Shown one piece after another: positions 20,448 through 23,079 of a stretch of 64,000 bases of DNA. The stretch is taken from assembly GCF_030996345.1 (NCBI RefSeq), contig NZ_CP118747.1:1982001-2046000 (forward strand), read 5' to 3'. Within the stretch, counting starts at the first letter, position 1. Each line of letters begins with the position of its first letter. The translations under genes and the position numbers were made by a program. The notes beneath the pieces were generated by a model. That model was given only the letters and a program-made list of their open reading frames with translations, searched no databases and was not told where the DNA came from. Source of the stretch: Acidithiobacillus sp. AMEEHan. Lineage in GTDB: Bacteria > Pseudomonadota > Gammaproteobacteria > Acidithiobacillales > Acidithiobacillaceae.

Positions 20448-21239
20448 CTAGGCAATGGATGTGGCCCGCGTTCTGCCGCCTTCGCTGTGGGCAAGACTAC
20501 TTTCTGCGGCCGCAAGGAGCTGCCGGTCTGCACCTTGCAGGCGATGGTTCACGCCACGCAAGGTGTGGATGACCAGCGGCTGGGCCCTTGCCCGGTCGGC
20601 AAATTGAAAGCTCCGTTGCAGGGGAACGGCGTCATCCGCAGAACCGTGCAGAATGGTGACGGGAATCGCCAAGTGCGGAGGATTTTGCAGCAGATCGTGA
20701 CGCGCCGCATCACGCACGGCGTCGAAGCCGAGCTGGTACACCGGGCCGTTGCTGCCGAGCGACCAATCGTGCAACCCGGAACTTTGCCAAGCCTGCTGCG
20801 CCTCTGGAGCAAGGGCAGCAAAATAGTCTTGGATAAAGTTGTATGCCGGGGCAATGAGCAGCAGGGCGCGGATGCGCTCGGGCCAGAGTTGGGCAGCGCG
20901 GGTCGCTACCCAACCGCCCATACTCGAACCGACGAGAAAGATCGGCCGGGACGGCAGCGCGCACAGGACGGCTTCCACGTCCTCCAGATAGCGAGAGATA
21001 CTCAGTTTGGCAAAGCTGCCGTCGGAGATACCCATGCCGCGATAGTCGAAGCGTAGCCAGGACCGTTGATTTTGCTGCGCACAACTGGCGAGAAGCTGCG
21101 ATTTGCTACCGTTCAGGTCGGAGGCAAAGCCCGGGAGAAAGACGCCGATGACTCCCTGCCCGGAGTCCTGAAAGTAACCGCGCAGGACCTCGCCGTCGCG
21201 GACCGGAATTGCGAAGGGATTTTCCGTGGAAAGCTGCAT
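20448..21239 (-). CDS. Alpha/beta-hydrolase
   Basis: A 263-residue cytoplasmic hydrolase. The nucleophile elbow is GSSMGG (Ser about 104), the acid lies in HGSADD and the histidine in GVNHRL, giving a complete Ser-Asp-His triad. The FDYRGMGISDG segment after the oxyanion region resembles serine esterases of the palmitoyl-thioesterase (ABHD10-like) group. The substrate is unknown. The ATG at 21239 has no ribosome-binding site and lies only 17 bases after the T-run of an intrinsic terminator. Transcription from the promoter at 21367 would therefore have to pass that terminator, which suggests attenuation. Confidence 0.82.
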   Translation of the reverse strand: MQLSTENPFAIPVRDGEVLRGYFQDSGQGVIGVFLPGFASDLNGSKSQLLASCAQQNQRSWLRFDYRGMGISDGSFAKLSISRYLEDVEAVLCALPSRPIFLVGSSMGGWVATRAAQLWPERIRALLLIAPAYNFIQDYFAALAPEAQQAWQSSGLHDWSLGSNGPVYQLGFDAVRDAARHDLLQNPPHLAIPVTILHGSADDAVPLQRSFQFADRARAQPLVIHTLRGVNHRLQGADRQLLAAAESSLAHSEGGRTRATSIA

Positions 21240-21255
21240 GTAGCAAGCATGGCAC

Positions 21256-21334
21256 AAAAAAAGGGGCTACTGAAAGCCCCAAAACCACAAAGGAGGAAAG
21301 AAACATGCGCTCGCGGCCAAAGTTGACCGCGAGA
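21256..21334 (-). ncRNA. Candidate small RNA or attenuator leader, copy B
   Basis: About 79 nt on the minus strand. It begins with a 7-bp hairpin (CTCGCGG and CCGCGAG, 21333-21310). An unpaired linker follows (21309-21281) containing UUUCUUUCCUCCUUUG, whose CCUCC core is complementary to Shine-Dalgarno sequences. It ends in an intrinsic terminator, GGGGCT-UUCAGU-AGCCCC plus U7 (21280-21256). A consensus-quality promoter places the start at the 5' hairpin. A sibling copy lies just upstream. Alternatively it is the attenuated leader of the hydrolase gene. No known RNA family was recognised. Confidence 0.6.
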
Positions 21335-21338
21335 GGCA

Positions 21339-21367
21339 ATATTAGCATTTGCTCGATCTTCTTGCAA
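21339..21367 (-). promoter_or_regulatory. Promoter of copy B
   Basis: On the minus strand TTGCAA (21367-21362), exactly 17 bases, then TAATAT (21344-21339). The predicted start is at about 21332-21334, precisely where the 5' hairpin of copy B begins. This is one of the best sigma-70 matches in the window. Confidence 0.7.
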
Positions 21368-21387
21368 GAAACATCCCGACCGGTCGG

Positions 21388-21478
21388 AAAAAAAAGAGGG
21401 CGGTACCGGAAAGGACCGCCCAAAACCACCAAAGGAGGAAGAAACATGCGCTCGCAACCATCACAGCTGCTTGCAACG
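21388..21478 (-). ncRNA. Candidate small RNA, copy A
   Basis: Sibling of copy B, about 90 nt. It has a weaker 5' hairpin (UUGCAA with UUGCGA, one G-U pair). The linker is nearly identical (21450-21422), starting GCGAGCGCAUGUUUCUU and carrying the CCUCCUUUG core. The terminator is strong: GGGCGGU with ACCGCCC, then UCU8 (21421-21388). The linkers differ by two compensating single-base indels, while hairpin and terminator sequences differ but keep their shape. Its promoter is weak (TCTAAA at 21485-21480 without a clear -35), so it may be processed from photolyase read-through. Confidence 0.5.
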
Positions 21479-21528
21479 ATTTAGAACGAGGGTTGCTGGA
21501 AAAGTTCCTGAGCCCCTTACGGAAATTG

Positions 21529-22959
21529 TTACGCGTTGTTTACGGGCTCCGTCTTGATCGCCGCAAAGGCGGCCAAGGCCCGTTCGCGGGCTAGGTGGTG
21601 GTCCACAAGAGGTAGCGGATAGTCTTGCCCGAGCTTGATGCCCTTCGTCTGCACTTGCTCCGGATCGCTCCACGGCGCGGACAACAGGTGGTCTGGCAGT
21701 GCGGCGAGTTCAGGCACCCAACGCCGCTGGTAGCGCCCGTCGCCGTCGAATTTTTGCGCCTGCAACACCGGATTGAAGACGCGAAAATACGGGGCGGCAT
21801 CGGTGCCGCAACCCGCGACCCATTGCCAGGAGGCATTGTTGTTGGCCGGGCAAGCGTCGACTAGGGTATCCCAAAACCAGGCCGCACCCTGTTGCCATGG
21901 CAAGAGAAGATCCTTCACCAGAAAACTGCCCACGATCATGCGCACGCGATTGTGAATATAGCCGGTTTGCCAAAGCTCGCGCATGCCAGCGTCGACAATG
22001 GGGTATCCGGTCTGCCCATGCTGCCACGCGGCGCGCAGAGCCGCGTCATTCGACCAGGGAAACTGCGCAAATTCCGCGCGCAGCGGTGTATGGGGTAATT
22101 CGGGAAAATGATACAGGAGATGCCAGGAAAACTCGCGCCAGCCAAGTTCTGCCAAAAATTTATCGATCGGCCGGCGCAAATCGGGTTGTGCCGCAGCGAC
22201 TTCCTGCAGGCGTTGCCAGATGCGCCGCGGGCTGATCTCGCCGTGCGCCAGGTGGGGCGACAGACGGGATACCTTTTCCGCGGCGGGATAATCGCGGCCC
22301 TCGGCATACTTAGCCAAGTTGTCCGTGATAAATCCCTCCAGACGCGCGATGGCACCTTCCTCGCCGGGTTGCCAGTGCTCAAGAAAACGGCTGGCCCAAT
22401 CCGGAGCCTTTGGTTCCCAGCCCCAGCTATCGGGATCTGCGGAAGAGGGAAGGCGTGCGGCTGCCTGGGCCTGCTGCGGCTGCGCGAAGGGCGCGTCGAC
22501 GGCGATGTCGCGTAGAAAACGTTTCCAGAATGGACTGAAGACCTTGTAGGGGGCGCCATCGCGCAGGAGCCTCCAGGGCTCACACAGGGTGTCACCGGCA
22601 AAAGATTCCGCCTGTACACCGCGTTCCCGCAGGACCTCCTTGAGGCGAGCGTCGTTGTCCCGTTGCCCTTTGGCGTAGCGTCGATTCCAGAGCACCGCCT
22701 CTGCACCGCTTTCGGCGACGAGTTCTGGAACCAACTCCAGACTGTTTCCTCGCCGATATATCAAGGGTAAAGCCAGATTCGCGAGCCGGGCCTCGAGCTT
22801 GTGCAGGCTTTGCCGCTGCCACCATTGGTAGGCCGCGCCCCGTTCGTCGATCGGGTCGCTCACAAACACGGGTAGTACCGGGCCGCGTGCCACCGCATGC
22901 GCAAAGGCGGGGTGATCATCGAGGCGCAGATCATTGCGAAACAAGACAATACTGGTCAC
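21529..22959 (-). CDS. phrB: Deoxyribodipyrimidine photolyase (class I CPD photolyase)
   Basis: Light-driven repair of cyclobutane pyrimidine dimers. The 476 residues include an N-terminal antenna domain (VLFRNDLRLDDHPAF) and a C-terminal FAD domain with TGYPIVDAGMRELWQTGYIHNRVRM and WQWVAGCGTDAAPYFRVFNP. The Trp residues of the electron-transfer chain appear present. The GTG at 22959 was chosen because GGGGGAG lies just upstream and the protein then starts at the canonical position. The two small-RNA-like units lie directly downstream. Confidence 0.94.
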   Translation of the reverse strand: MTSIVLFRNDLRLDDHPAFAHAVARGPVLPVFVSDPIDERGAAYQWWQRQSLHKLEARLANLALPLIYRRGNSLELVPELVAESGAEAVLWNRRYAKGQRDNDARLKEVLRERGVQAESFAGDTLCEPWRLLRDGAPYKVFSPFWKRFLRDIAVDAPFAQPQQAQAAARLPSSADPDSWGWEPKAPDWASRFLEHWQPGEEGAIARLEGFITDNLAKYAEGRDYPAAEKVSRLSPHLAHGEISPRRIWQRLQEVAAAQPDLRRPIDKFLAELGWREFSWHLLYHFPELPHTPLRAEFAQFPWSNDAALRAAWQHGQTGYPIVDAGMRELWQTGYIHNRVRMIVGSFLVKDLLLPWQQGAAWFWDTLVDACPANNNASWQWVAGCGTDAAPYFRVFNPVLQAQKFDGDGRYQRRWVPELAALPDHLLSAPWSDPEQVQTKGIKLGQDYPLPLVDHHLARERALAAFAAIKTEPVNNA

Positions 22960-23079
22960 GGAGCTCCCCCCAAGGCGATGACAGGCCACTACCCTACAAA
23001 GTTGTCTTGGTGCAAACAAGGCCTTGTCAATCCTGCGTCGGGCCGGGACAATGCCGCAAACTCGGTGGGGAGCGAAACC

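Follow-up and report, generated by a model that had tools for sequence, protein, structure and literature searches.

Does the intergenic region between a DNA photolyase gene and an alpha/beta hydrolase gene of Acidithiobacillus sp. AMEEHan encode regulatory RNAs, and of which kind? For the window, i.e., the 64,000-nt stretch analyzed here (G000:C1:1982001-2046000), the original prediction had proposed two tandem sibling small RNAs (sRNAs) with an anti-Shine-Dalgarno (anti-SD) core on the minus strand. The pair (21256-21508, minus strand) is real, conserved, non-coding, and absent from Rfam; its build is like that of the neisserial NmsR RNAs, and it is related to RNAs that resemble the betaproteobacterial family RF02278, with scores below both cut-offs. 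The anti-SD sRNA type itself is known; the new points are the split promoters and a lineage linked to rplM. A literature search with little reach into subscription journals found no Acidithiobacillus paper describing the pair.

Architecture of the tandem pair

From 5' to 3', each unit consists of a 5' hairpin, a 29-nt linker, and an intrinsic terminator (Table 1), and all elements of the predicted layout were found, including hairpins that end in GCGAG and tracts of eight and seven U residues. Copy A comprises the hairpin GCAAGCAGCUGUGAUGGUUGCGAGC, the linker GCAUGUUUCUUCCUCCUUUGGUGGUUUUG, and then the terminator with U8, and copy B the hairpin CUCGCGGUCAACUUUGGCCGCGAG, a linker that includes UUUCUUUCCUCCUUUGUGG, and the terminator with U7. 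Both linkers follow the formula GCAUGUUUCUU(U)CCUCCUUUG(G)UGGUUUUG, in which the anti-SD core CCTCCTTTG is present once per copy, and the motif GCGAGCGCATGTTTCTT-N0-2-CCTCCTTTG has exactly two occurrences in the window (0/100 shuffles). The two single-nucleotide linker indels, which had been thought to shift any reading frame, are present but compensate each other, so that a sense frame is displaced in the stretch between them and nowhere else.

The fold z-scores are -4.98 for copy B and -2.12 for copy A. A U-rich stretch (GUGGUUUUG) before the terminator and the U7/U8 tracts are features of Hfq-type sRNAs, and Hfq is encoded in the genome (97.6 bits). Against an exposed linker counts the prediction that the anti-SD core of copy A is partly paired (~0.6 unpaired).

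Table 1. Features of the RNA pair and its neighborhood (window positions); identity is the mean column identity over 24 aligned Acidithiobacillaceae loci
Feature	Position	Strand	Identity	Basis or remark
Copy A -35 GGAACTT, sigma-E type	21502..21508	-	1.00	invariant in 7/7 columns; fixed distance to -10
Copy A -10 TCTAA	21481..21485	-	0.94	compare 0.60 for the spacer
Copy A RNA, ~87 nt	21388..21474	-		predicted start near 21474; fold and conservation
Copy A 5' hairpin	21450..21474	-	0.94	97% of cells paired across relatives
Copy A linker	21421..21449	-	0.99	core CCTCCTTTG at 21430-21438; 30/31 columns invariant
Copy A intrinsic terminator	21388..21421	-	0.72	U8 at 21388-21395; sequence; compensatory changes in stem
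Palindrome CCGACCGGTCGG, candidate copy B operator	21376..21387	-	0.98	single exact copy in genome
Copy B -35 TTGCAA	21362..21367	-	0.84	conserved
Copy B extended -10 TGCTAATAT	21339..21347	-	0.99	conserved
Copy B RNA, ~79 nt	21256..21334	-		predicted start near 21334; fold z-score -4.98
Copy B 5' hairpin	21310..21333	-	0.69	95.9% paired; two-sided changes in 5/8 pairs
Copy B linker	21281..21308	-	0.99	core CCTCCTTTG at 21288-21296; 25/28 columns invariant
Copy B intrinsic terminator	21256..21280	-	0.78	U7 at 21256-21262; sequence; folds in relatives
Alpha/beta hydrolase gene (Hydrolase_4)	20448..21239	-		Pfam; downstream of the pair in 27/27 loci; possible readthrough gene
DNA photolyase gene, upstream neighbor	21529..22995	-		Pfam; adjoins the pair only in genomes of the window's genus and in one genome beyond it

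Conservation and compensatory changes

A BLAST search of 57 genomes with the pair as the query detected strong similarity in 26 genomes besides the own one, all belonging to its genus, family, and order, and the pair occupies the identical position in 26 related genomes of the Acidithiobacillaceae and a sister family. No exact match to the pair was found among viral contigs. Outside Acidithiobacillus, the exact linker pattern has six isolated matches among 84,980 species, without other parts of the RNA, and these are taken as chance because the inspected ones lack a terminator.

The footprint over the 24 Acidithiobacillaceae loci (Table 1) picks out the promoter elements, the palindrome, and above all the linkers, compared with values of 0.55 for the DNA upstream of copy A, 0.60 for its promoter spacer, and 0.55 for the spacer of copy B. 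In the copy A-type stems, 94.5% of the cells are paired across relatives, versus 39 to 53% in slid versions, and the 21 cells changed on both sides are a level reached by 0/500 shuffles. This compensation is carried by the terminator, since changes in the copy A hairpin are confined to one side of the stem; the changes in the copy B hairpin were reached by 3/500 shuffles. The expectation that the stems differ in sequence and yet keep pairing was thus borne out by the compensatory changes in these two elements.

Copy B is the less constrained sibling. Its core reads UCUCC in three relatives, including A. ferruginosus, and CCUCU in one, and in A. ferrianus copy B has decayed while copy A is intact.

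Split promoters and sigma-E

In the relatives, copy A is preceded by GGAACTT-N16-TC[TC]AA, which we take to be a sigma-E-type promoter signature, with the distance kept while the spacer sequence varies. The form GGAACTT-N15-17-TCTAA has a single occurrence in the 2.63-Mb genome, the copy A site, and the relaxed form (TCNAA) adds two further genome sites. RpoE is encoded in the genome (337 bits; cut-off, 236), and rpoE is followed by an RseA-like (anti-sigma-like) and then a DegP-like reading frame, as judged by eye. Copy A therefore has both features looked for in an sRNA of a sigma-E regulon, the GGAACTT-N16-TC[TC]AA promoter and an RpoE factor. Counting against this assignment, the strand of rpoE itself showed no GGAAC-type site in the rpoE locus examined. 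MicA and RybB of Escherichia coli are sigma-E-dependent sRNAs; they resemble copy A in the GGAACTT/TCTAA-type promoter that drives an Hfq-type sRNA, whereas they have other seed sequences and known targets, and no sequence relation with copy A is claimed.

The promoter previously proposed for copy B, TTGCAA (21362-21367)-N17-TAATAT (21339-21344), is present as described. In the sister family, (G)GAAC-N18-TC promoters are found at both copies; in the Acidithiobacillaceae, by contrast, TTGCNN and TGCTAATAT form an extended -10 promoter of the sigma-70 type at copy B. The palindrome CCGACCGGTCGG lies 42 to 43 nt upstream of the copy B -10 element in nearly all Acidithiobacillaceae genomes, whatever the spacer, and in A. 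ferrianus it has decayed together with copy B. These promoter sequences suggest split control of the siblings, of a sigma-E type for copy A and of a sigma-70 type for copy B. The original prediction did not contain the sigma-E-type promoter of copy A or the palindrome of copy B, which resembles an operator; the downstream gene shared by all loci and the relatives found across the class (see below) are likewise additions to it.

As a side observation, one of the two sites of the relaxed form, GGAACTT-N17-TCCAA at G000:C1:1159382-1159410 (minus strand; locus L068), lies directly upstream of an envelope gene identified by eye as D-Ala-D-Ala-carboxypeptidase-like, and this site is a second candidate sigma-E promoter.

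Relation to described RNA families

Neither unit matched an Rfam family at its gathering score, in agreement with the earlier statement that no described family was recognizable. The closest build is that of NmsR of Neisseria (NmsRA/NmsRB, NgncR_162/163, RcoF; RF02877), which likewise consists of tandem siblings in one intergenic region, each with a 5' hairpin, an exposed UC-rich anti-SD stretch, and a terminator; the NmsRb consensus UUUCUCCUUUGUAGACUUGG corresponds to UUUCUUUCCUCCUUUGUGGUUUUGG of copy B. However, copy B reaches 20.1 bits, with the gathering score at 52, and in NmsR a second anti-SD occupies the loop of a middle stem-loop, whereas the pair has one CCUCC core per unit and its middle helix is almost absent (~2 to 4 pairs in folds). 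A further difference is that the Neisseria siblings are not known to have a sigma-E-type promoter. The anti-SD motifs of the NmsR tandem siblings are required for repression of TCA-cycle genes, and fumC is among their putative targets (PMC5362039).

RF02278 (Betaproteobacteria toxic sRNA, bdhR1; S17 of Bordetella) shares a CU-rich anti-SD motif followed by a terminator, but its match in the window scores 19.2 bits against a gathering score of 50, and no RF02278 match was obtained in the own genome. In this family, a CUCCA/UGG-type hairpin precedes the terminator and has the anti-SD in its loop. Of this hairpin, copy A keeps only the remnant GGUGGUUU; the pair differs from RF02278/S17 in having no CCUCCA/UGGUGG hairpin around the anti-SD and in its tandem arrangement with split promoters. 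S17 is Hfq-dependent and represses a sigma-54 activator, with pairing at ribosome sites (PMC11722255). The alphaproteobacterial RNAs ar14 (RF02344), suhB/MmgR (RF00519), and SorY (RF02651) share an exposed CU-rich stretch and a terminator, but the scores are far under the gathering scores for suhB (20.4 versus 41) and SorY (22.2 versus 111), and ar14 was not among the matches listed for the window.

rplM-linked anti-SD RNAs of Gammaproteobacteria

The covariance search proposed with the original prediction was performed with two models, R1 of the copy A-type RNAs and R2 of rplM-linked RNAs only, without any Acidithiobacillales sequence. At an E-value of 0.01, R1 matched 65 of 369 Gammaproteobacteria genomes, and its matches largely coincide with sub-cut-off RF02278 matches in this class. 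Reciprocally, R2 ranked the two units of the window first and second in 864 kb (34.4 and 25.4 bits; E-values of 4e-6 and 0.001, which are rough, as all covariance E-values here come from short calibrations). The reciprocal matches tie the pair to single anti-SD RNAs that are scattered over the Gammaproteobacteria and resemble both RF02278, at scores below its cut-off, and the neisserial NmsR pair. These single RNAs read ACUCCUCCAUCCUCCUUUGGUGGUUU followed by a terminator, with a sigma-70-like promoter in many, and they therefore hold the anti-SD UCCUCCUU in the loop of a CCUCCA/UGGUGG hairpin.

Motifs of rplM (L13) and/or rpsI (S9) were found within ~1.2 kb downstream on the same strand in roughly two-thirds of 53 surveyed loci, some of which were counted twice under different locus ids; Pfam confirmed L13 at one locus and S9 at one. 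A single anti-SD RNA (ACTCCTCCATCCTCCTTTGGTGGTTT and a terminator) was seen just upstream of rplM-rpsI, on the same strand, in many gammaproteobacterial families, e.g., at L142:4997, L143:5056, L145:5122, L146:4965, and ~30 loci among L029 to L098. These RNAs are below the RF02278 cut-off and therefore unannotated by Rfam at these places.

The rplM-linked RNAs thus sit upstream of rplM-rpsI, whereas the tandem pair precedes the alpha/beta hydrolase gene. Genomes of the sister family have, besides the pair, a third copy of intermediate sequence (UUGUUCCUUCCUCCUUUGGUGGUUU) near rplM-rpsI; in the own genome, no rplM-linked third copy was found at an E-value of 0.01. We infer that the tandem pair branched off from the rplM-linked RNA. 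A weak R2 match at L185:11294-11356 (G000:C1, ~1867294-1867356, minus strand) has a CU-rich stretch (CCTCCTCCCCAT) and a terminator directly after a porin-like gene; with 19.1 bits and an E-value of 0.07, it is not claimed as a third copy.

Proposed function and alternative readings

We consider it likely, with a probability of roughly 0.7, that the pair represents two sibling Hfq-type trans-acting sRNAs with their own promoters and terminators. This agrees with the original proposal and is supported by the conservation of the RNA, the compensation in the stems, two conserved promoters, the terminators, the presence of hfq, and the covariance kinship. Transcription of each unit would run from a separate promoter to a separate intrinsic terminator. 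The resulting RNA would present a mostly unstructured linker, in which CCUCCUUU copies the tail of the 16S rRNA. By analogy with S17 and NmsR, the linker would pair with the Shine-Dalgarno (SD) regions of a set of mRNAs and block initiation, and since its GCAUG lies at the SD-to-start distance, start codons may be covered too. Copy A would be made when the envelope-stress factor RpoE is active, adding to the RNA pool, and copy B by the housekeeping factor, probably modulated by a regulator at the CCGACCGGTCGG palindrome.

Target statistics were obtained for a single genome, from evenly spaced stretches (~0.8 Mb) and the window. No gene start in this genome fits the whole linker, and its full complement with up to three mismatches occurs only antisense to the units themselves and at one further site that is unconvincing. 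The 8-mer complement with a start codon identified few real genes; the single non-self site of the 9-mer complement with a start codon was rejected, as it falls out of frame within a TPR-type gene. Duplex energies at 732 predicted gene starts exceed those of shuffles, as SD content alone would give, and the share of exported proteins among the top 40 duplexes (0.23 versus 0.16) is not a clear enrichment.

The main uncertainty is whether copy B, and copy A by readthrough, instead form a 5' leader or attenuator of the alpha/beta hydrolase gene, with the terminator gating entry and the short RNA as a by-product or a dual-use leader. In both families, every one of the 27 loci has the hydrolase gene downstream of the pair, with varying genes on the upstream side; the hydrolase gene starts mostly 8 to 21 nt past the U-tract of copy B (36 to 49 nt in the sister family), which leaves little room for another promoter. 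Given this spacing, readthrough expression is probably at least partial, and copy B may also act as a leader, a role that is compatible with one in trans. As the principal explanation, however, we regard a leader as unlikely: copy A, located further upstream, is equipped with a separate promoter and terminator, the hydrolase gene persists in A. ferrianus beside an intact copy A though copy B decayed, relatives elsewhere precede rplM-rpsI or other genes, the invariant part is the exposed linker identical to the 16S tail, and the folds suggest no strong competing antiterminator.

The core is identical to the 16S anti-SD, and the related RF02278 RNAs were called toxic because their overexpression suppressed growth (PMC11722255), so the RNAs might act on translation generally, as decoys of the 16S tail, and not on chosen mRNAs. 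This is quite improbable in view of the conservation of the whole 29-nt linker and not of the core alone, the reported lack of impairment of exponential growth of E. coli by Bordetella S17S (PMC11722255), and the repression of defined targets by S17 and NmsR (PMC11722255, PMC5362039).

Small-peptide genes (minus strand, starting at GCATG; plus strand, starting at 21305 and 21446) are rejected as extremely improbable. In their favor, the antisense of the linker looks like an ideal ribosome site with a start codon (CAAAGGAGG-N7/8-ATG), and the sense frames start with MFL(P/S)(P/S). However, the CAAAGGAGG site simply mirrors the anti-SD as its complement, the transcript ends without a stop in the sense frame in 26/27 A copies, the antisense products change length and frame between genera, and the stems vary like RNA pairs. 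The original prediction had stated that it would be refuted if relatives conserved only a reading frame of the plus strand beginning at 21305 or 21446; no peptide frame survives across the relatives, and with ~99% conserved linkers and compensating stems it is the RNA that is conserved.

Lineage of the pair

The pair appears to be an undescribed branch of an apparently widespread proteobacterial family of anti-SD RNAs. In a tentative scenario, which we rate somewhat below even odds, one ancestral anti-SD sRNA adjacent to rplM-rpsI spread in the Gammaproteobacteria (beta branch included) and underlies both RF02278/S17 and NmsR; the Acidithiobacillales copy would have moved, been duplicated in tandem, and come under sigma-E. 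Within the Acidithiobacillaceae, one sibling would later have exchanged its promoter for one of the sigma-70 type with an operator, and the copy at rplM would have disappeared; a single translational repressor would thereby have become a stress arm and a housekeeping arm.

For biomining acidophiles, the pair represents a conserved candidate sRNA system, and the sibling promoters offer a direct test of the division of labor between duplicated sRNAs. Separately named anti-SD RNAs are joined in a class-wide lineage, and since many of its members lie beside a ribosomal-protein operon, a link of translation to ribosome supply or stress is now testable.

Tandem pairs of the rplM-type RNA were also seen in other gammaproteobacteria (L054:1133 and 1286; G174:C83:5201-5393), so that tandem duplication of anti-SD RNAs seems to recur. 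At L144:4896 (G178), such an RNA lies just upstream of a fumC-like gene and not of rplM.
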